From a virus: a stretch of DNA of 23,082 bases. Positions 6,431-23,082 of the stretch are shown piece after piece. The DNA is taken from positions 1 to 23,082 of the IMG/VR virus record IMGVR_UViG_3300010368_000117; one strand, written 5' to 3'. A program made the position numbers and the translations under genes. How positions within the stretch are numbered: position 1 is the first letter of the stretch; every line of letters begins with the position of its first letter. Under the pieces are notes generated by a model that ran no database searches, was not told where the DNA came from, and saw only the letters and a list, made by a program, of their open reading frames with translations.

Positions 6431-7308
6431 ACATATTAAGACCTATCTCAAAAGAGTTCTATGGGGACGATGTTCGTTGGTTCTTTGGCACTGTCATCAA
6501 TGCACATCCTCCTTCTGGTCTAGAGGGTCGTGTTAAGGTTCGTATCAATGGAGTTCACAGTCCAAGTACTGTCGACATTCCTGAGAAAGATTTACCATGG
6601 GCACAAGTTCTAATTCCGACTACTGAAGGTGGCGCATCAGGTATTGGAAAAATACCACAACTAGTGCAAGGCGCGTTCGTGTTTGGAATTTTTATGGACG
6701 GTGCAACATCTCAGTTGCCTCTTGTTTTAGGTTCTCTGCCGCGCACAGAGTATCCCTCTACTACACAAACTCAGCGTAGAGTATCTGGTGTGAATGCAGT
6801 AGACTATGAGAAGAGTCGATTGCAGAATATTATTATTTCAGCATTTAAAGATGATGCTGATCCTAATGCTCGGGTTACACTTCGTAGACAGCAGTCAATG
6901 AAGTTCTTTATTGATAATGGATATTCATTGATTCATTCTGCCGCTATAACAGGCGCTCTTCAAGCACAGTCTAGTTTTTTAATCTATGACGAAAAGTGGA
7001 ATGATGTTAATTATAATGATAAATTAGGTATCGCAGGATGGAGAAAAGTAAACATAGCAAATAGTCGTTACAATAATCTACTTAAATTTACGAGACAATT
7101 TCAACCAAACTCTGACTGGAAACTATTCTCTATACAGATACAATTTGTACTTTATGAATTACGCAATCAGTTCAACCAAGTAAATAGTCGATTGATTGCT
7201 ACTACTAATATAAAAGATGCCAGTGAAATTGTTAATAGATATTACTTAAAAAATACTAATACTAGCGATAGATTTGCGAAAAGTATATATGACGAGGTGC
7301 TTGATTAA
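6427..7308 (+). CDS. gp5: gp5-like hub protein: OB-fold plus degenerate tail-lysozyme domain
   Basis: Residues 15-107 match the gp5 OB domain: WFFGTVINAHPPSGLEGRVKVRI, LPWAQVLIPTTEGGASGIGK, GAFVFGIFMDG, then LPLVLGSLP. Residues about 150-285 resemble the phage tail lysozyme family (Phage_lysozyme2): a helix before AAITGALQAQSSF, LGIAGWRK, LLKFTRQF..DWKLFSIQIQFVLYELRN, and a final RYY helix. In that family the first motif normally reads like NLQAESGF, with Glu catalytic; here Q181 (CAG) takes that place, and GIAGW replaces the usual GIAQW. The domain may therefore be inactive. Unlike T4 gp5 (575 residues), the beta-helix is absent and is encoded two genes downstream. Start and stop overlap both neighbours. 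Confidence 0.78.
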   Translation: MNILRPISKEFYGDDVRWFFGTVINAHPPSGLEGRVKVRINGVHSPSTVDIPEKDLPWAQVLIPTTEGGASGIGKIPQLVQGAFVFGIFMDGATSQLPLVLGSLPRTEYPSTTQTQRRVSGVNAVDYEKSRLQNIIISAFKDDADPNARVTLRRQQSMKFFIDNGYSLIHSAAITGALQAQSSFLIYDEKWNDVNYNDKLGIAGWRKVNIANSRYNNLLKFTRQFQPNSDWKLFSIQIQFVLYELRNQFNQVNSRLIATTNIKDASEIVNRYYLKNTNTSDRFAKSIYDEVLD

Positions 7309-9221
7309 TGGCAAAAGAAAATGCGGCAAAACTTCAGGATGATGTTAAAACGGCAGTAACATCGATTGACACTGCTCCGTTAACAGATGCAGCAAATCAA
7401 TCAACAGAATCTTTTAAGGCAGCAAACGAAAGCGTTACAGGTTCTATTGCAGGTCAAATTCAAGGGGGTGTTGAAGGACTTACTCAGAAATTTGACGCGT
7501 TCTCCGATAAGTTAAGCGATACGACAGTCGAAGGATTAATGACTGACGGAGTAGAAAGTCTCAAGAATATGGGAACGGACTTTGTTAATGGTGCAATTGC
7601 CGGACTAGCATCTAAATTTGCGTCTAGTGTTACTGTTCAGTTCAGTGAACCAGATTCGAATGGCATTGTATATCCTATCGCATCGTCATTGCAATCTGAG
7701 GGCGGCGTCGACGCGACGGTCGGAACCATACTTAGGTTAATCACCGGACTAGGAATTGATGCTGGTAGTCTACAGAAGACTCTTATCGATGCAAGTCCAA
7801 AGGGTTTACTAGATGCAGGTAAAGGTCTTCTTGTTGATAAGATGGGAGCATTTGACGGTGCTAGTGCAATTACAGCATTAACAGAAGCTGCAACGGAATC
7901 TGTACTCACCGTACTAGAAGATGCTACTAGTGGTGTTCTGAATAATATTAAAGATGCTGGTGGTAATACTCTTAATAGTATAGGCAAGAACATCACAAAT
8001 ATTCCTGCTAGTTGGGACGCTAATGGTGCGGTTACTTCGGTTACGTCAGTTACAGGATCAGGTGATAATTTCGACACAGCGTTCGGTGATGCTGTAAGCA
8101 ACATACGCAACGGTCTAGTTGATCTTCGTGCTACCATATCTGATGATAATAATATTAAAGAAAATCTTGCTGGCGCGCTCTCTGACGTTGAGAATCTTTC
8201 GGGCGGCAAAGATGGTAAGACTGTGCAGAGTGCGGTTGGCAATACTGTTAATTATCAGGCATTGTACGAGAAGAAGGGAAGCGAGTATCGTTCACTCGTT
8301 CAGACAAAGTTAGCAAAAAATTCACAACGTGGTATTATTCAGGGTCTTAACATAGAAACTTTAACTACTGTTCGTAAGCAGATTAAAGCATTCGCCCCCG
8401 CTCTTGTTGATGCAGATATCAATCGTGTTATTGAGTTATGTCAAGGTGATGCCGATGAGTTTTCGCAGGCAGTACGATTAGTATTTTCTGCCAACAAGCA
8501 ATCATACTCAGCGATAAGAACATTCTTAAAGAGTATTGATACGACAGTATTTAATGCGACAAGACCTCAATTGACAGATATTGTATTTGAAGAACCTTAT
8601 GTTATTGGTTCATTCGATAAGACTTGGAATAAAGGTACAGGAGATCCTGTATTTCCTTACATATCCTCACTCGAAGAATTGCTCGCCGACATTAAGAATA
8701 TTAAGCGTGAAGTAACAGAAGTTGTTGTGCATTGGACAGAGACTCATACTAATAAAAATATAGGCTCTGAAGAGATTAATAAATACCATCGTGATGTAGG
8801 TCTAGATGGTATTGGTTATCATTACGTAATACGGCGAGATGGTTCTCTTCAGCGAGGAAGACCAGTTAGTCTCGAAGGACAACATTCTCCAATTAATAGG
8901 CATGATCTTCGTAGTATAGGAATAGTGTTCGTTGGTGGTATAAACGTGCCTTCAGGAACACCTAATTCAGAGCAATTCTTGTCTGTACAATCGTTGACCA
9001 GAAGTCAGATTAATACATTCGACCATTTCTGTCGTTCTATCTACTCTATATTTCCAGGAGCACAGATAGTAGGGCATTCTAATATTGATGAGGATGAGTT
9101 TGATCCTGGTTTTGATGTTACGAGTTATGTAAGAGCCAACTTTGGTAAGAAGAGTAAGTTCACTGATCCTCTTACTCAAGAACCATTCACCCTAATTCAG
9201 TTGTTAACAGATGACAAATAA
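7308..9221 (+). CDS. Hub-associated N-acetylmuramoyl-L-alanine amidase with long N-terminal region
   Basis: Residues 1-430 are Ala/Ser/Gly/Asp-rich and largely helical, with no recognised domain; they look like a structural or tape-like tail segment. Residues about 465-612 form an amidase_2 (AmpD/T7 lysozyme-type) domain that cleaves the bond between MurNAc and L-Ala in peptidoglycan. The zinc ligands appear as H475 in VVVHWTETH, H590 in VGHSN, and D599 in DPGFDV; GIGYHYVIRRDGSLQRGRP with Y504 and GQHS with H526 are also conserved. E597 occupies the position where AmpD and T7 lysozyme have a catalytic Lys two residues before the last ligand. The gene lies between the gp5-like and spike genes and overlaps both, so the enzyme is probably carried on the baseplate hub to open the cell wall during infection, possibly taking over from the altered lysozyme domain upstream. 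Confidence 0.82.
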   Translation: MAKENAAKLQDDVKTAVTSIDTAPLTDAANQSTESFKAANESVTGSIAGQIQGGVEGLTQKFDAFSDKLSDTTVEGLMTDGVESLKNMGTDFVNGAIAGLASKFASSVTVQFSEPDSNGIVYPIASSLQSEGGVDATVGTILRLITGLGIDAGSLQKTLIDASPKGLLDAGKGLLVDKMGAFDGASAITALTEAATESVLTVLEDATSGVLNNIKDAGGNTLNSIGKNITNIPASWDANGAVTSVTSVTGSGDNFDTAFGDAVSNIRNGLVDLRATISDDNNIKENLAGALSDVENLSGGKDGKTVQSAVGNTVNYQALYEKKGSEYRSLVQTKLAKNSQRGIIQGLNIETLTTVRKQIKAFAPALVDADINRVIELCQGDADEFSQAVRLVFSANKQSYSAIRTFLKSIDTTVFNATRPQLTDIVFEEPYVIGSFDKTWNKGTGDPVFPYISSLEELLADIKNIKREVTEVVVHWTETHTNKNIGSEEINKYHRDVGLDGIGYHYVIRRDGSLQRGRPVSLEGQHSPINRHDLRSIGIVFVGGINVPSGTPNSEQFLSVQSLTRSQINTFDHFCRSIYSIFPGAQIVGHSNIDEDEFDPGFDVTSYVRANFGKKSKFTDPLTQEPFTLIQLLTDDK

Positions 9222-15312: not shown

Positions 15313-18300
15313 ATGGCAAATCAGTTTACAACAACTACGTTATCCGGAACTTATTTCGATGACTATGACACAACAGATAATTATCACCAGATACTATTTA
15401 ATAGTGGGCGGGCTCTTCAAGCGCGGGAACTAACGCAGCTACAAACTCTTGTCTATGAAGAGATGGGACGTTTTGGACAAAACATTTTCAAAGAAGGTGC
15501 TGCGGTATCGGGTGGCGGTTCGAATGTAAATGGTTCATATCAATACATCAAGATTGCATCTACAAATTCTGGTGGTTTGTTTTCTGCCATTCCAGTCGGA
15601 ACAATCTTCAAAGATCCTCTTACAAATATTCAGGCACAAGTATTAGAAGTTGTTCAGGCAAATGGAGATATTCCAGCCTTCGAGTTCGACACTCTTTATG
15701 TAAGATATATCGATAGTGGCGCAGGCACGGTCAGTTCTGAAACTATCACTTTTGGTGATGGTGTCACACTCTATGATCAGACTGGAACAGGATACGAACT
15801 GGTAACTGAAGATCCTAATGCGACAGGATATGGTGTTAAATTTTCAGTGGCGCGAGGAGACTTCTTTGTTTTAGGTCGTTTCGTACACACCGAAGAACAA
15901 TCAATCATTCTTAGCTCATACTCGCAGAGTAATGTCAACAAAACTGTAGGATTTAAAGTTGTACAAGAAGTTGTCACTATTAATGATACTACAGCATTAT
16001 ATGACAATACGAGTGGTATAGTCAACACGTCTTCTCCTGGTGCTGATCGCTATCGTATTAGACTTGTACTGACCACTCAAGATCAGGTCACTTCTGATGA
16101 TACCTTCTTGTGGATTGCCACAGTTGAGAACTCTAAGATCACTGAAGAGATTCAAGTTACAGATGCTTACGACAAAATCAATGATCTTCTCGCGCTAAGA
16201 ACTAAAGAAGAGTCTGGTGATTATATCGTTTCTCCTTTCATTGTTAATCTTTCTGAAGGCGATGTTACTGACTCTAGTCTTGATATGATCATATCAGATG
16301 GTACTGCATATGTCAATGGTTATAGAGTTAATAAGCAGTCCGCGACTAGACTGAGTGTTCCGAAACCAACTAAGACAGAATTTGTTGAGAGTCAAGCAAT
16401 CCCCGTCTACTACGGAAACTACTTTATCTGTTCTGGTAACAGAGGTATTCCAACTATCGATTACAGCATAGTTGAAGTTTATGATGGTGCTGATGCGGGT
16501 GGTGTTGAAATAGGACAGTGTAGAATACGAGCAGTAGAATCTTTCGGCGAGCAGTTTAAAGTTTATGTTTTTGACGTTGCAATTGATCCTAATAAATCTA
16601 TTCGTGATGCTGCGTCTGTTGGCACTGGTGGTAGCGACTACTTCAATATTGTTGCTGAGGGAAGTAATGTTCAATTATACGATACCACTAACAATGATTT
16701 ATTGTTCCCTACTCCGAGAATTAGACCTTCTTCATTCGCTGATTTAAATATAATTGGGCAAGCACTACAAGCAAAGACTGCATCTACAAACATTATTAAT
16801 CTCGATCAGTTGCCTGTAGGTTCATCTTATGTAGAGTCCGGCTCATGGATTGTAGGCACCATATCAAATGATGCAGAATCTGGTTATGTAGTCACCATTA
16901 CAAATGGCGGAAGAGACTGTGCAATCTCAGGTCTAGATCAAGCATCTGCTGATTATAAAGTTCTTGTATATATTTCAAAGACTTCGACAGTTAAACCGAA
17001 GACTCTTTCCTCAAGCACTTTAACAATTGCAGAAAGTTTAATCGATCCAGATAGCGGTCTCCCATATTGGACATTAGCTGTCCCTGATATCTACGAAGTT
17101 GACGAGATACGTGCGGGTAACAGTTCTGGTATTGATATCAAGTCTATGTTTGTTCTTGACGATGGTCAAAGGGACAATTACTATGCTGATGGTCGTTTAC
17201 TTCTGAAAGACGGACATGTTGATCCGGGTGAAATCTATGTAAGTTTCAAACACTTCACTCGTGGATCAGGTGATCTTTATGCTTCAACTTCTTATCCAAT
17301 AGACTACAAAGATATTCCTGATCATGTATTGACTGATGGTTCTGTAATTAATCTGCGAGATTATCTTGACTTCCGTCCTGATCAAAATTATCCTATCGGT
17401 GATAATTCAAGTTTCACTAACATCGTTCCACTTCCACGTAATGGCGATAACATTGTTGCTGATGTTACTTACTATTTGCCTCGTGCAGACAAACTGATCC
17501 TTACACCTGAGGGCGAATTTCAAATATTAATGGGTGAGCAAGCAGAGAATCCACAGTTCAAAACGACTCCCGAAAACACTATGGAGCTGTATAAGATTAT
17601 TCTGAATGCTAATACTCTAGATGAAGACGATCTAGAATTAATGCCTGTCGAGAATCGACTTTACACAATGAAAGATATTGCTAATCTTGAACAGAAGATT
17701 GATGATTTAGAAGCATATACTACTTTAAGTCTTCTTGAATTAGATCAACGTCTATCTCTCGCTCTAGACAGTGATGGTAATGTGCGTTTAGAATCAGGTT
17801 CTATCGCCGACGATCTTGGCGATCAGACTGGTGCTGATATAAATGACGTTGATTTCGGCGCTGCACTCGATCCAGAAAGTCGTTTAGTTCGTCCATCTTT
17901 CACAGAGAAGAATCTACGTCTTATTGTTGACACTGATTTGTCGAGCGGTATAGTTAAGAAAGGCGATAATGTTTATCTTACGCATGACTCGGCAGAGTGG
18001 GCAAGTCAATTACTTGCTTCTCGCGGAGTTCTTGTTAATCCGTTTGGATTGATAGATAATGTGGGAACACTGAAGATTTCTCCAAATACTGACGAATGGA
18101 AGGAGTCTGAAGCACTAGCAAGTAAAGCATTAGCAGGTAGTAATAGGATTGATGCAGTTCAGGCATTCTTGTGGAACAACCACGTCTGGAACTGGCAGGG
18201 TCGAAATGGAGAAGAGGTTAGATTGAATTATGCTAAACTTACTAGTAATAATGCTAACATTAGAAGGCAAGAAATTCGACGTGCAACTAATAACTATGCT

Positions 18301-20703
18301 ACTAGTAAATCGACATTCAAGACTGATGCGCAGACAGGTAACTATGTTACACGTATAGTTGCGTCGGACACTCTTCGACAAGTGGTTGGAAATCGTATTG
18401 TTGATATTGCTATTGTACCTTGGATTCGCTCGCGTAAAGTTTATTTCAAAGCACAAGGCCTTACTCCTAATACCAAGTTTACTCCATTCTTTGATGGACA
18501 GGATGTGAGTGAGTGGTGTCGACAAGAGTCTTCTTTTGTTCAATGGTCGGATCGATCTGAAGATGTTGGTAACAAATACACTCAGAACACAATCAATGAG
18601 CATCCTGCAGGCACCAGTTCTTTGATTTCAGATGCTAATGGTGAAGTTATTGGATCGTTCTTTATTCCTAACATTCAACCTGAAGCGGTGATTGAACGCA
18701 CTACTAGAAAATCAAAGAGATGGTTTAAAACTAGAACTAGTGCCTCTTACTCGATTCGTTTTCGCGCTGGTGTTCGCGAGTTTAAACTCCTTGATATTAA
18801 TGTTAATGATTGGGCAGGCGCAGGAAGCAAAGCGTTTGCTTACTACACTGTTCAAGGCGCATTGCCTAACAGTCGTAGTGTTACTCTTGCTACCCCTCTG
18901 AGTCAAGGCAAGCAGGGATTTACTGCTAAAGAGTTGAAATCAGTTATCGATCGAATTGGTGTAAATAATATATCGATTGTTGATCCTAGACTGTCAGGAC
19001 TTTATGGACCAGACGAAACTTCTTTGAGTGCCGCTGCATTAGCAAGTATTGCGGGCAATAAGTCTATGTCAAAGGTAATATCAGATTATATCGATGTTAA
19101 CAAGAATCAGTTTGCTGATATTCTACCCGCGAATCCTGTTTCTATTCCGATGAATCCATTAGCACAGACATTCTTTGTTGACAATCAGTTTGGTGTAACA
19201 TTAACTAAACTTGATTTATTCTTTAAAGCAAAACCAGAAAGTTCTAATTTGCCAGTTTCTATTCATATTCGTCCAGTAGTTAATGGCAAACCTTCGTTGA
19301 CTGAGATTGTAACTGATTCTCACGTTTACGTCAATTCTGCTGATGTTGTTGTTACTCCTGATATCGAACAGCTATCGACTATCACTACCAATTCCACTAG
19401 TTTTGTGTTCGAAGAGCCAGTGTACTTGAAACCTTATACATCCTATGCTATAGTCATTACTTCACAATCAACTCAGTACGAGTTATATAGTGCTAAGACT
19501 AGTGAGTTTGTAATTGGTTCTTCAAGTCGTGCGATTACTACTCAACCTGCACCAGGACTGTTGTTCTTACCACAAAACGGAGTTAACTGGTTAGAGTCTA
19601 AAGATCAAGATATCATGTATCGTTTGACTCGTGCTAAGTTTGGCACTTCGGGCGGTGCTAATGGCAGTCTTATTTTAAGAAACGCTGATGTTCCTGCAAC
19701 TCTATTAGCAGATGCTGCTCTGAGGACTACAATAAGCAGTTCTATTGTTTATGTCGCCCACAAAGGTCATGGTTTATTCTCAGGTGATACCGTACAACTT
19801 GATAGTTGTGAAGATGTGGGTGGTATTAATGCTGCGACATATCTCAACGGATCACACACTGTCGATTCTGCGGATATATTCGGATATACTTTCGATGCTG
19901 GCAGCACTGCGTCTGCAACTGCTGTTGGTGGTGGTATCAACTGTCTATCGCTAGGTAATATGCCATTCTCCATCGTTAATCCACATATTGAAACAATTAT
20001 TCCTAATTACACTTCATTATCTACATCTGCTAAGTGGACTTCTGGACGATCCGTTTCAGGTAGCGAAACTCGATTCACACAAGATGCTGAGTATAAGACT
20101 ATTTCTTTGAAGCAGAATATTGAATTCTCAGAGATAAAAACAATCTACAATACCAACACTGAAGATGCTGAACTTGGTGCAGGAGAATCTTCTGTATACT
20201 TTAAGATAGATATGAAGAGTTCAACCGATTATGTTTCACCAATTGTTGATCTCCAGCGTTCATCTTTAGTTCTTGTTGACAACTTAATTGATGACGAATC
20301 TGTTACTACATACATCAATCCTGCGCTTGCGGCAGGCGCCACAGCAAATGTAAGACCTGCACAATATATTATGAAGCCTGTAATTCTTGAGCATAACGCA
20401 GTAGGTATTGAAATTAAATCAGATGTTCAAATTTTACCTGGTTCGAATGTCGCTGCGTTCTACCGAACTGCTTCTGCTGACCAAAATATATATGATCAAC
20501 CCTGGATAAGTAAAGAAACCATTAGTGCTGATACTAATGCATCAAGTACTTCTGATTTTAAAGAACTTGTATGGTTACCAGGAGACAGAGGAGGCACTTT
20601 GCCAGCATTCAATCAGGCACAAGTTATGTTCACAATGTCTTCGAATAATGCTGCGGTTGTTCCTAAGTTTAAACGAGTCCGCTTAAAGTACTTGGCAGTT
20701 TAG
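15313..20703 (+). CDS. Giant DUF4815-type baseplate/tail protein
   Basis: The 1796-residue product opens with NYHQILFNSGRALQARELTQLQT followed by RFGQNIFKEGAAVSGG, the signature of the DUF4815 family found in large baseplate-associated proteins of marine T4-like phages. Near 785-815 is a coiled-coil-like segment (MKDIANLEQKIDDLEAYTTL). Near 1035 is AIVPWIRSRKVYFKAQGLTP, then FFDGQDVSEWC. Near 1282 is LAQTFFVDNQFGVTLTKLDL, then FFKAKPESSNLPVSIHIRPV, typical beta-sandwich stretches of this family. A compact module with HGLFSGDTVQL...NGSHTVDS...YTFDAG lies at about 1476-1543. No gp7 or gp10 gene is otherwise visible, so this protein may cover a peripheral wedge role; that is inference. No frame break is seen over 5.4 kb. 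Confidence 0.78.
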   Translation: MANQFTTTTLSGTYFDDYDTTDNYHQILFNSGRALQARELTQLQTLVYEEMGRFGQNIFKEGAAVSGGGSNVNGSYQYIKIASTNSGGLFSAIPVGTIFKDPLTNIQAQVLEVVQANGDIPAFEFDTLYVRYIDSGAGTVSSETITFGDGVTLYDQTGTGYELVTEDPNATGYGVKFSVARGDFFVLGRFVHTEEQSIILSSYSQSNVNKTVGFKVVQEVVTINDTTALYDNTSGIVNTSSPGADRYRIRLVLTTQDQVTSDDTFLWIATVENSKITEEIQVTDAYDKINDLLALRTKEESGDYIVSPFIVNLSEGDVTDSSLDMIISDGTAYVNGYRVNKQSATRLSVPKPTKTEFVESQAIPVYYGNYFICSGNRGIPTIDYSIVEVYDGADAGGVEIGQCRIRAVESFGEQFKVYVFDVAIDPNKSIRDAASVGTGGSDYFNIVAEGSNVQLYDTTNNDLLFPTPRIRPSSFADLNIIGQALQAKTASTNIINLDQLPVGSSYVESGSWIVGTISNDAESGYVVTITNGGRDCAISGLDQASADYKVLVYISKTSTVKPKTLSSSTLTIAESLIDPDSGLPYWTLAVPDIYEVDEIRAGNSSGIDIKSMFVLDDGQRDNYYADGRLLLKDGHVDPGEIYVSFKHFTRGSGDLYASTSYPIDYKDIPDHVLTDGSVINLRDYLDFRPDQNYPIGDNSSFTNIVPLPRNGDNIVADVTYYLPRADKLILTPEGEFQILMGEQAENPQFKTTPENTMELYKIILNANTLDEDDLELMPVENRLYTMKDIANLEQKIDDLEAYTTLSLLELDQRLSLALDSDGNVRLESGSIADDLGDQTGADINDVDFGAALDPESRLVRPSFTEKNLRLIVDTDLSSGIVKKGDNVYLTHDSAEWASQLLASRGVLVNPFGLIDNVGTLKISPNTDEWKESEALASKALAGSNRIDAVQAFLWNNHVWNWQGRNGEEVRLNYAKLTSNNANIRRQEIRRATNNYATSKSTFKTDAQTGNYVTRIVASDTLRQVVGNRIVDIAIVPWIRSRKVYFKAQGLTPNTKFTPFFDGQDVSEWCRQESSFVQWSDRSEDVGNKYTQNTINEHPAGTSSLISDANGEVIGSFFIPNIQPEAVIERTTRKSKRWFKTRTSASYSIRFRAGVREFKLLDINVNDWAGAGSKAFAYYTVQGALPNSRSVTLATPLSQGKQGFTAKELKSVIDRIGVNNISIVDPRLSGLYGPDETSLSAAALASIAGNKSMSKVISDYIDVNKNQFADILPANPVSIPMNPLAQTFFVDNQFGVTLTKLDLFFKAKPESSNLPVSIHIRPVVNGKPSLTEIVTDSHVYVNSADVVVTPDIEQLSTITTNSTSFVFEEPVYLKPYTSYAIVITSQSTQYELYSAKTSEFVIGSSSRAITTQPAPGLLFLPQNGVNWLESKDQDIMYRLTRAKFGTSGGANGSLILRNADVPATLLADAALRTTISSSIVYVAHKGHGLFSGDTVQLDSCEDVGGINAATYLNGSHTVDSADIFGYTFDAGSTASATAVGGGINCLSLGNMPFSIVNPHIETIIPNYTSLSTSAKWTSGRSVSGSETRFTQDAEYKTISLKQNIEFSEIKTIYNTNTEDAELGAGESSVYFKIDMKSSTDYVSPIVDLQRSSLVLVDNLIDDESVTTYINPALAAGATANVRPAQYIMKPVILEHNAVGIEIKSDVQILPGSNVAAFYRTASADQNIYDQPWISKETISADTNASSTSDFKELVWLPGDRGGTLPAFNQAQVMFTMSSNNAAVVPKFKRVRLKYLAV

Positions 20704-20940
20704 ATGATGTCTGATCGCTTTCTTAAAGTGGAGGGCGCTCCTGGGTTTGTTCGAGATACAGAGACTAATGCTATATTAAATAGAAATCACTCTGAGATCG
20801 AAATTGCCCAAGAGCGCAAGCGAATACGAAATATCAAGAAGCAAGAAGATCAAGAATTGCAAAATACCGTCAATATTCTTCAGGAAGATATGGCAGAAAT
20901 CAAAGGTATATTAAATTTATTGCTGTCCAGAAGCATATAA
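20704..20940 (+). CDS. Small coiled-coil protein of the late tail cluster (78 residues)
   Basis: The gene follows the giant baseplate gene with no gap; two tandem ATGs (20704 and 20707) are available. The N-terminus (FLKVEGAPGFVRDTETNAIL) followed by a long charged helix (about 28-72, ending MAEIKGILNLLL) resembles small proteins found after large tail genes in marine T4-like phages, where a VRDxxTxAIxN motif precedes a coiled coil. The function is unknown to me; an oligomeric adaptor or scaffold role is a guess. Its stop TAA lies inside the late promoter of the fibre gene. Confidence 0.78.
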   Translation: MMSDRFLKVEGAPGFVRDTETNAILNRNHSEIEIAQERKRIRNIKKQEDQELQNTVNILQEDMAEIKGILNLLLSRSI

Positions 20941-20975: not shown

Positions 20976-23082
20976 ATGTCTAGACCGCTCAAACATCTTG
21001 GCTCTGGAGCACTTCAAGAACTAGCTATTCTAGATGTGGACTATGTTGCTTATAAAGCAGGACTGCATCTCGGTCGAATTTCTTCGTCTGATGCTTCTGC
21101 ACTAACGTTGGTGTCAGGCGGTGATACTGTAGGAGAATTCGGGGATTCTTATTATGAGAGTTCTGTAGGAGCTGTGCCTGGAACTTATTGGTCAGTAACA
21201 TTTAATGCTGAATTAATATCAGATCCTGAAACTGGTGTTCACACAACTGTATTCACACAACAAGACGAACTTCCTTCTCCTCTTTACATTGGCGACACTC
21301 TTAATGTTGTAGTTAATGGCGATGCATTTACTGGATTCGAAGAGATTGGTTTCGAACTTTCGTTAGATGGTAGTGCATCATATACTGTTGATGATGTTAG
21401 GACTTCTCCTACTTCTAATACAACTGAAAATACAAGAGTAGAGTGGGAAGACTTTGTAAATTCCGAAGGTCTTCTAGGCACATACTCTGCTGAATTTGAT
21501 ATAACAGTTACTCAATCTGGTCTTTTGAATGCTACCCTAACCGTCAACTCAACTGATCGTGATAATGTTGCAAATCCAACATCTGATATTAGCATTGTAT
21601 TTCCTACAGTAGATGTTGAAGCTGCTCTGCCTCCAGTTGCTACAGTCACCTCTACACTACTTTACCAGAATACTCAAGCACAGAAAGCAATTGATACTAA
21701 TAATATTCTAAAGAAGAATCCTGTATTCTGGGATAGAAATCAGGCGCTGCCTGGCATCAAAGAAATGAGTGATGCAGAATTGGATGCATTTACTGAAGTT
21801 CTTGTTGCTAAGATTGTTGCGAACGAGTTGCCGGGTTCTTTCAGATTAAACGCAAACAGCCCGGGCGCAGGTTGGGTTGAATTTATCCCCGCTGCATTTG
21901 TCGACACTCGTGGTGACGGCACTATTATCAGCTATTCTATATGGGTTAAACAGACGGGTGTTGCGCCTACTACAGTAAGACCATTGTATATTGATCGAAT
22001 TGCTGGTCAGTATAATGGATTAAAAGAATACAATGATGCTCAGATCGAATTTACTTTTGGCGAGAGAGTGAAGAAGGCGATCGACACAACAGGTATCGGT
22101 AAATATCAATTACGATCTTCTGCTCAAGGCGCACCAACTGCACCAGGAACTTGGGTCGCTCGAGGCAGTGCAGTTGATACACGTCTCACATACGTATATG
22201 ATCTTGGTTATGATGTTGGTTCACAATATACAGGAGAATATGAAGAAAGTTATACGGGAGCTTACACTCCAACTTATGATAGAGAATTCTTAGCCAACTA
22301 TAATCAAACATACATTGGGGATTATCTAACAGACTATGCTCAGAATTATATTGACGAGTTCAATGTCGACTTAGACTATGTAGGCGAGTACATCTCTCAA
22401 TTCTCAGGTAACTTTGCTGCAACATATGATAGTCAAGACTATGATGCTCAATTTTCAGCAGACTTTATCTCGTCTTACGTTAGCCAATTCAGTGAAGGTT
22501 ATCAAAGTGATTATCAAGGTATTGAATACTTAGGTTTAGAATACATTTCAGATTATGCCTCAGAATACGAGAGTGTATATACTTCGGAGTATACTGGCGA
22601 CTATGAAGGTATTGTTTATCAGAAAGATTATATTGCCGATTACTTGGGCAGCTTTGTTGGTTCTTATGAAGGTAGTTTCGCTGAGACCTACGATGGTCCA
22701 GGTTATATTGCTGGCTTTATTTCACTATATACTGGCGAATACGAAGGCGCATTTTCAGAAAACTTCGGAAGACGATTCGAAAGCACTATATTATACGCAG
22801 TAGAATACGGTTCAACATATATCGGCGATTATGGGAGTTCGTTCAGTGTTTCATTCCTAGATGCCTACGAGGGAGCAGATTATAATTCTCAATTCTCTAT
22901 AAACTATTCTACCGTTTATGGAAGTGATTATCTAGTAGAATTTTCTTCTGCCTATGATTCTGTAGTATATGATACTGCCTTTGCAACAACATATATTGGA
23001 GACTACGAAGGATCTTTTTCACTGCAATTTATAAATGAATTTGATGCTGGCAGCTATGTAGGCGACTACATTAGTCAATATA
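20976..23082 (+). CDS. Tail fibre-like protein with aromatic four-residue repeats (runs off right edge)
   Basis: Starting at the ATG at 20976, the frame is open for 702 codons to the window end. The first residues (MSRPLKHLGSGALQEL) match the N-terminal type I associate with baseplate-attached fibre proteins of marine T4-like phages. Residues about 50-230 are beta-rich and acidic with an Ig-like feel (strands around YWSVTFNAELI and AEFDITVTQSGLLNATLTV). Residues 240-400 include AQKAIDTNNILKKNPVFWDR and a SPGAGWVEFIPAAFVDTRGD segment. From about residue 406 (22191) onward the sequence becomes a long array in which nearly every fourth residue is Tyr or Phe, with Gly/Ser/Ala, Asp/Glu and aliphatic residues between. 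An internal methionine-free stretch and no break support a single gene. A receptor-binding or adhesion role is inferred. Confidence 0.8.
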   Translation, partial: MSRPLKHLGSGALQELAILDVDYVAYKAGLHLGRISSSDASALTLVSGGDTVGEFGDSYYESSVGAVPGTYWSVTFNAELISDPETGVHTTVFTQQDELPSPLYIGDTLNVVVNGDAFTGFEEIGFELSLDGSASYTVDDVRTSPTSNTTENTRVEWEDFVNSEGLLGTYSAEFDITVTQSGLLNATLTVNSTDRDNVANPTSDISIVFPTVDVEAALPPVATVTSTLLYQNTQAQKAIDTNNILKKNPVFWDRNQALPGIKEMSDAELDAFTEVLVAKIVANELPGSFRLNANSPGAGWVEFIPAAFVDTRGDGTIISYSIWVKQTGVAPTTVRPLYIDRIAGQYNGLKEYNDAQIEFTFGERVKKAIDTTGIGKYQLRSSAQGAPTAPGTWVARGSAVDTRLTYVYDLGYDVGSQYTGEYEESYTGAYTPTYDREFLANYNQTYIGDYLTDYAQNYIDEFNVDLDYVGEYISQFSGNFAATYDSQDYDAQFSADFISSYVSQFSEGYQSDYQGIEYLGLEYISDYASEYESVYTSEYTGDYEGIVYQKDYIADYLGSFVGSYEGSFAETYDGPGYIAGFISLYTGEYEGAFSENFGRRFESTILYAVEYGSTYIGDYGSSFSVSFLDAYEGADYNSQFSINYSTVYGSDYLVEFSSAYDSVVYDTAFATTYIGDYEGSFSLQFINEFDAGSYVGDYISQY
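22191..23082 (+). repeat. Aromatic tetrapeptide repeat array within the fibre gene
   Basis: About 297 residues can be written as about 75 four-residue units such as YTGE, YIGD, DYEG and SQFS, nearly all holding one Tyr or Phe. The aromatic register shifts only when single residues are inserted or lost. At DNA level the units are not identical: IGDY is written ATCGGCGATTAT and ATTGGAGACTAC, so the pattern is kept by protein-level selection rather than by recent duplication. The array continues past the window end. Confidence 0.85.

Follow-up and report, generated by a model that had tools for sequence, protein, structure and literature searches.

What sort of protein carries a long array of aromatic tetrapeptides, and how would such an array be built into a virion, is the question raised by the 3' end of a viral DNA of 23,082 nucleotides (the whole stretch analysed, hereafter the window). 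This 23-kb virus fragment has a T4-like tail gene order, in which gp5-, gp25-, gp6- and gp8-like genes are followed by genes for 1796-aa and 78-aa proteins and then by the array gene, whose position corresponds, by T4 gene order, to that of T4 genes 11/12, gene 12 encoding the short tail fibre. The open reading frame of the array gene (20976-23081, plus strand) comprises 702 codons and has no stop up to the window end; it is incomplete at its 3' end, so that the return arm, tip and C-terminus described below would lie beyond the contig. In sequence searches of Pfam, PHROGs and the PDB the window array protein found no match. Elsewhere in the tail region, positions 7308-9221 encode a 637-aa protein with a C-terminal Amidase_2 domain behind a long Ala/Ser/Thr-rich part, probably a cell-wall-cutting tail component. 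The features that the argument needs are the following.

15313..20703, plus strand: 1796-aa tail protein (DUF4815 / phrog_358), between the gp8-like and the fibre genes.
20704..20940, plus strand: 78-aa virion structural protein (phrog_473), upstream of the array gene.
20976..23081, plus strand: array gene, 702 codons in the window, incomplete by comparison with full-length relatives.
20976..21155, plus strand: N-terminal segment (MSRPLKHLG.GALQEL...), the conserved start of the family by alignment and BLAST.
21183..21626, plus strand: Ig/cohesin-like beta-sandwich, residues 70-217, AF2 pLDDT about 90.
21714..21965, plus strand: D2, helix-strand-strand-strand, ending ...YSIWVKQ, from AF2 and a domain HMM.
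21966..22184, plus strand: D3, second copy of the D2 domain (YQLRSSAQGAPTAPGTWVARGSAVDTR) by the domain HMM, interrupted by the array.
22191..23081, plus strand: putative outgoing arm, an aromatic ladder with some 72 [Y/F]-x-[G/S/A]-x rungs.
22602..23081, plus strand: regular superrepeat of 29 residues, in which six units have 4 residues and a seventh has 5 or 6.

An earlier note on this DNA had described Tyr or Phe at nearly every fourth residue, and the counts bear this out: residues 406-702 (297 residues) hold 72 Y/F, and 59 of the 71 spacings between them are exactly 4, the rest being 5 (eight), 6 (three) and 2 (one), while shuffling gave 16.8 +/- 3.2 distance-4 pairs with a maximum of 30 in 5000 shuffles. 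Position by position, a unit is made up of Y/F, then I/S/T/A/E/L, then G/S/A, then D/E/S/T/Q. As the note also stated, the array is not repetitive at the DNA level, the sole case being a 12-mer present in two copies (22197-22221). The period of four that it had proposed, by contrast, stood locally and fell for the array as a whole: a spectral check peaked at 4.2, not 4.0, the mean spacing is 4.18, and a 29-residue superperiod is present. The longer units are spaced 7 units apart, 6 of 10 intervals being exactly 7 (random P about 2.5e-5), and in 22602..23081 there is one extra residue per 7 rungs, an architecture conserved in relatives. Spacings of 4 and 29 agree with neither the 3-residue period of collagen nor the 7-residue period of a heptad coiled coil, a mismatch that the note had rightly pointed out; silk, RTX and choline-binding repeats, considered as further candidates, were set aside because their spacing does not fit. 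Within the unit, the rung and +2 positions are conserved (0.91 and 0.84) and the +1 and +3 positions variable (0.60 and 0.68), a pattern that fits a strand burying one of its faces. Monomer structure prediction, which had been proposed as a check, succeeded in part: AF2 modelled the N-terminal domains and left the array unfolded at pLDDT about 20-35, both in the window fragment and in a complete short relative.

A related-locus search with the window protein as query gave no relatives. They were recovered instead by a spacing grammar (T-[AT]-[CT] at 12/15-base spacing) applied to viral contigs, so that the metagenome search for period-4 aromatic arrays suggested in the earlier note did yield relatives and many arrays. 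The scans recovered 84 and 120 stretches, many of which were simple repeats in other frames, and retention was limited to ORFs that had suitable arrays and a minimum length of 200-300 aa. The 29-residue architecture is found in dozens of viral contigs, with up to 15 perfect consecutive repeats of the form Yxxxx(Y-[TS]-G-[ND]-[FY]-xxx)x3, and pure 4-residue arrays lacking the superperiod in many more; since the first grammar scan demanded the superperiod, its frequency there is no measure of abundance. Homology of the relatives is confirmed, at the level of sequence, by the non-repeat N-terminal half, the nearest being 57-61% identical to the window protein over its first 409 residues (BLAST). 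Among 50,697 records probed with four different queries, the only deposited phage with a family member was Phage C48C1 (Kyanoviridae), whose WJE88074.1 is a 3347-aa 'hypothetical protein'; the mention in the note of YTGNY-like arrays in marine phages was thus well founded. In the D2/D3 region this protein is 45% identical, and it likewise has tetrapeptide arrays and the C-terminus ETYTLYVRVA, but its arrays are purely 4-residue, with Arg in some rungs, and it has several extra globular inserts. No description of such arrays or fibres was found in open-access papers, and the fibre class is apparently undescribed so far.

Several loci recovered on the way deserve mention in their own right. A match in Vibrio phage F23s1 proved to be a tandem-repeat artefact in the wrong frame, and the 119 hits from genome contigs of bacteria and archaea were simple repeats except for L328, the sole real array gene among them, which adjoins masked sequence. 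A 1281-aa ORF of a mussel endosymbiont (L249) has a different aromatic 4-residue array (YDQWFEEEYDGWFNRNYDNWF), and in a structural protein of Synechococcus phage S-RIM2 (L005:4405-10143), a fibre protein different from the array family, aliphatic tetrapeptides (GNVTGNLTGDVTGN) form a comparable array close to the C-terminus. Tandem pairs of array genes on the same strand occur in L191, L098, L170, L113, L129, L120, L007, L026 and L186; their N-terminal domains are related but different and their layout is identical, and they possibly represent two fibres per phage. In L045 (10819-13900) the array frame breaks after 700 aa and resumes in another frame (477 aa), through either a sequencing error or a frameshift.

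Because the window gene is cut off before the tip, we infer its own tip, return arm and C-terminus from the relatives. Complete relatives, from viral metagenomes and 442 to 4,485 aa long, all have the conserved N-terminal domains, the array and a conserved C-terminus (ETYTLYVRVA, TFWKRIA, LKLWVRTA and similar), and they share one layout, in which collar-like N-terminal domains are followed by an outgoing arm, a hypervariable centre, a return arm of the same length and the C-terminus. Where a clear non-array segment is present it lies mostly at 0.45-0.57 of the array, with exceptions in L196, L114, L209, L007 and others; automatic tip detection fails for Arg-rich and 8-spaced arrays. With hand-set tip boundaries, the rung counts of the outgoing and return arms were 63/65, 99/100, 262/267, 336/340, 352/355 and 495/491, the largest inequalities being 172/148 and 206/230. 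The array to which the earlier note drew attention would be only the outgoing half of a hairpin, and the note had seen neither the hairpin nor the superperiod.

The two arms also gain and lose residues at matching places. L201 (3513 aa) and L206 (2769 aa), which are 76% identical and both belong to the window's clade, differ by indels of 170, 32, 96 and 58 from base to tip and of 56, 96, 32 and 172 from tip to base, with mirrored breakpoints. Shuffling the order of indels alone is a weak test, and a position test was used instead, in which the return-arm indels were placed randomly and the offset was optimised. For this pair the mean mirror mismatch was 2.3 residues, and random placement gave 61.8 (p 0.0005). 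L215 and L156, from an independent lineage with pure-4 arrays, show indels of 72, 20, 100, 16 and 28 in both arms, in mirror order, with a mismatch of 0.6 versus 28.1 (p 0.0005); the nearly identical L200 and L207 differ by one large indel per arm, mirrored (166 and 189, p 0.14). Overall, 9 of 13 pairs gave p values of 0.0005 to 0.03 and four were not significant, pairs lacking mirrored indels including L215/L125 (p 0.65) and L186/L099 (p 0.24); within-clade pairs share members and are not independent, and at least three lineages are covered. Of 440 indels, 319 had a length divisible by 4, and mirror-compensated indels measured 12, 16, 20, 28, 32, 72, 96 and 100. These mirror-image indels argue that the arms lie side by side and antiparallel, rung against rung, and the hairpin pairing of the two arms is, as far as comparison of relatives can tell, strongly supported. 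The window's own clade is the only one in which composition is mirrored about the midpoint. In L204, 8-residue zones face each other, acidic VPEQ in the outgoing arm opposite YERQQDIT in the return arm, which suggests charge pairing between the arms.

The extra residues follow a rule that likewise spans both arms. In the window's clade there is one for every seven rungs, and either arm may carry it. Counting from the tip of L201, extras stand on the outgoing arm alone from rung 31 to rung 171; further down, those of the return (b) and outgoing (o) arms follow one another as b b o b b o b b o at a constant offset, the extras of both arms forming a single 7-lattice (p 0.008). The union of the arms in L211 is a lattice of 7s and 3s (p 0.012), and the same test gave p 0.076 in L206 and p 0.042 in L014. 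This shared lattice explains the superperiod of the window array, and also the fact that 58 residues (2 x 29) in one arm stand opposite 56 (2 x 28) in the other. The extra residue is probably a beta bulge.

We then asked how the array is held at its ends. The N-terminal segment (20976..21155) is probably a virion anchor or a first collar-like copy. The beta-sandwich that follows is inserted in the window's clade only, and its model matched pilin and cohesin domains in the PDB at Z 8-9, the fold being a common one. Next come tandem copies of a domain composed of a helix, a strand, a GTWxxxGxxxDT strand and a YxIWxK strand; in D2, AF2 places the helix at 266-282 and strands at 289-292, 300-311 and 317-325. 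The last copy before the array has no final strand. When its own C-terminal 16 residues were added to the truncated D3, the D2-HMM score rose from 32.8 to 42.6 bits, compared with 35.8 bits for the natural following residues and 34.6 for a shuffled C-terminus, and in 47 of 48 proteins the C-terminal peptide beat its shuffled version (Wilcoxon 1.6e-9). In an AF2 model of a complete short member, the C-terminal peptide forms a strand (pLDDT 66-85) and the preceding 200 array residues are unfolded (<35). Judged by these profile scores, the C-terminal peptide is the last strand of D3 in complete relatives, which would make the array and tip one giant loop insertion in D3. The top PDB match of the short-member model was T4 gp11, a weak one (Z 3.5, rmsd 4.0 A, 48 residues) that spans D3 and the C-terminus; a BFVD search with the same model gave nothing significant.

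A related architecture is known from T4. Its collar ('flower') domains consist of a helix and a three-stranded sheet with big loop insertions (PMC3004832). In gp37, domain D11 (882-1009) is inserted into collar domain D10 (811-881 + 1010-1026), its stem arms (882-931 and 960-1009) have the tip in between, Gly921 packs on Phe970 of another chain, and the needle tip binds receptors (PMC6957217); the D10 fold is the gp12 collar fold, also found in parts of gp10 and gp11 (PMC6957217, PMC3004832). D2 and D3 show the helix followed by a three-stranded sheet, by prediction only, and the closure of a loop insertion by a C-terminal strand was seen in the same 47 of 48 proteins. As in the gp37 needle (D10/D11, PDB 2XGF), a terminal collar domain is split by a single insertion, two equal antiparallel arms run out to a small tip and back, and the last residues (...NYIVRLA in gp37) close the collar as the C-terminus of the array family closes D3. 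The Gly-Phe packing of the gp37 stem has its parallel in the conserved rung and +2 Gly/Ser positions. The gp37 arms, however, measure about 50 residues and hold seven histidine-coordinated irons, whereas those of the array family measure about 80 to 2000 and are almost free of histidine, which makes up 0.19% of the 53,156 array residues counted in 51 proteins, with 3 HxH motifs in all and none in the window array; aromatic tetrapeptides and a regular bulge lattice also set them apart from the gp37 stem.

The collars of gp10, gp11 and gp12 share with the array family the genome neighbourhood and, for gp11, the weak fold match, but the array family has two or three tandem copies per protein, the last loop of which bears the giant array. 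Both gp10 and gp11 have a GSW/GTW strand motif and a C-terminal strand ending R-x-A, like the family. The T4 C-termini (gp10 ITVYRWIRIA, gp11 FYHFERTA, gp37 FNYIVRLA), whose resemblance had been spotted by eye before scoring, ranked above all 1809 background C-termini (gp10), in the top 0.17% (gp11) and in the top 0.6% (gp37) with the family C-terminus profile, which the gp12 C-terminus did not match. Profile-profile comparison (hhalign) with single T4 gp11, gp12 and gp37 sequences was not significant. The triple-stranded beta-helix of T4 gp5, an octapeptide structure, is alike in that Gly recurs every 8 residues in many superrepeats, but its chains are parallel with no return arm, and the array family tolerates odd multiples of 4 as indels.

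Taken together, it is very likely that the array protein represents the first half of a fold-back fibre attached to the baseplate. Its N-terminal domains, laid out like the collars of T4 gp10/gp11/gp12/gp37, would anchor the protein at the tail, and the third of them (D3) would carry, in the loop that joins its last two strands, a huge insertion consisting of the outgoing aromatic tetrapeptide arm, a variable tip domain and a return arm with the same number of rungs, after which the C-terminal strand (~TLYVRVA) would close the anchor domain. Pairing of the arms would be antiparallel and in register, each 4-residue rung facing a single rung of the other arm; at every seventh rung one arm or the other would have an additional residue, probably a beta bulge, and the aromatic and Gly/Ser residues would form a buried face. 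Since the arms are matched rung by rung, both ends of the thread would be at the virus and the variable domain at the far tip. The fibre shaft with stacked aromatics that had been envisaged at the outset fits the tail-gene neighbourhood, the buried-face conservation and the antiparallel paired arms. The array would be beta-structured, presumably, by analogy with the gp37 needle, as a trimer of hairpins with six strands, and the best reading is an enormously enlarged fold-back needle in which aromatic/glycine packing replaces the histidine-iron sites.

Antiparallel pairing might instead take place between molecules, the outgoing arm of one chain lying against the return arm of another in a bipolar head-to-tail bundle, and indel mirroring alone cannot separate the two kinds of pairing. 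We regard this as improbable, as the C-terminal strand completes D3, so that the start and end of the array adjoin in one anchor domain (though arms may swap inside a trimer), and the baseplate position favours a single attachment point. Most phage fibres have their N-terminus at the base and their C-terminus at the tip. A straight parallel homotrimeric shaft with a knob in the middle, in which the second half of the array continues outward and the C-terminus is the tip, would conform to this orientation, and a central domain alone would not prove a turn; yet such a shaft predicts neither equal arms over an eightfold size range nor mirror-image compensating indels, a shared bulge lattice or a C-terminal strand completing an N-terminal domain, and the greatest variability is central with a highly conserved C-terminus, which leaves it a shade less probable still. 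The same slight chance is given to a disordered, sticky Tyr-rich tether whose arm symmetry stems from gene duplication or recombination: the AF2 confidence is indeed at the level of disorder, but the alternation of conserved and variable positions, the rung-exact cross-arm bulge lattice and the position-matched indels require a structural constraint. The earlier note had also raised a new solenoid. A beta-solenoid with a 29-residue coil and seven aromatic ladders is least probable of all, although up to 15 perfect repeats, each built as 5 + 3 x 8 and having Gly-Asn/Asp in every other unit, would lend themselves to it: many relatives are pure 4-residue arrays with no superperiod, indels come mostly in 4-residue quanta rather than multiples of 29 and have their compensation at the mirrored place in the opposite arm, and 58 residues face 56.

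Returning to the fold-back fibre, the tip is the part most free to change, L201 and L206 being 0.39 identical there versus 0.75-0.87 in the arms and N-terminus, and the central tip may well be the host- or receptor-binding part. A sugar-binding surface on the array, the further option in the earlier note, stays a candidate, the variation lying in the central tip domain and not in the array. In C48C1, a globular insert (L002:14137-14853) is similar to a virion structural protein of Vibrio phage F86 (L003:5307-8435), over the C-terminal part of the latter, and this F86 protein is encoded beside long-tail-fibre genes; the similarity would represent a shared adhesion module, as expected of exchangeable receptor-binding heads. 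Towards its C-terminal part the C48C1 protein (L002:8701-18744) contains several more globular inserts, and it also carries a nearly exact internal duplication (KTRHRSYLYYSTDTSTNQQFFEPRVDDM...); it lacks a simple symmetry, its own being more complex than that of other relatives. The T4 needle measures 150 by 25 A (PMC3004832), corresponding to roughly 2.3 A for each residue of an arm; on this scale, threads built from arms of 90 to 2000 residues would reach about 20 to 450 nm, and more if the strands were fully extended.

We think it likely, though with less assurance than for the window protein itself, that marine phages have a widespread and undescribed class of adhesion fibres: beta ladders in which a single chain runs out and back, with as many as about 500 aromatic rungs in each arm, a length exceeding that of the virion, one bulge per seven rungs shared between the arms, and arm lengths that evolve as matched mirror images. 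The model offers a fold hypothesis for many giant proteins of tailed-phage contigs that lack annotation and escape searches of Pfam, PHROGs and the PDB, and it locates their probable host-binding part in the central tip. The paired indels are an unusual form of coevolution, with matching insertions thousands of residues apart, and they make antiparallel pairing testable from sequence alone. The finding suggests that a needle as small as that of T4 can be enlarged about 40-fold, and very thin and very long protein threads might be designed with the tetrapeptide ladder as their unit.
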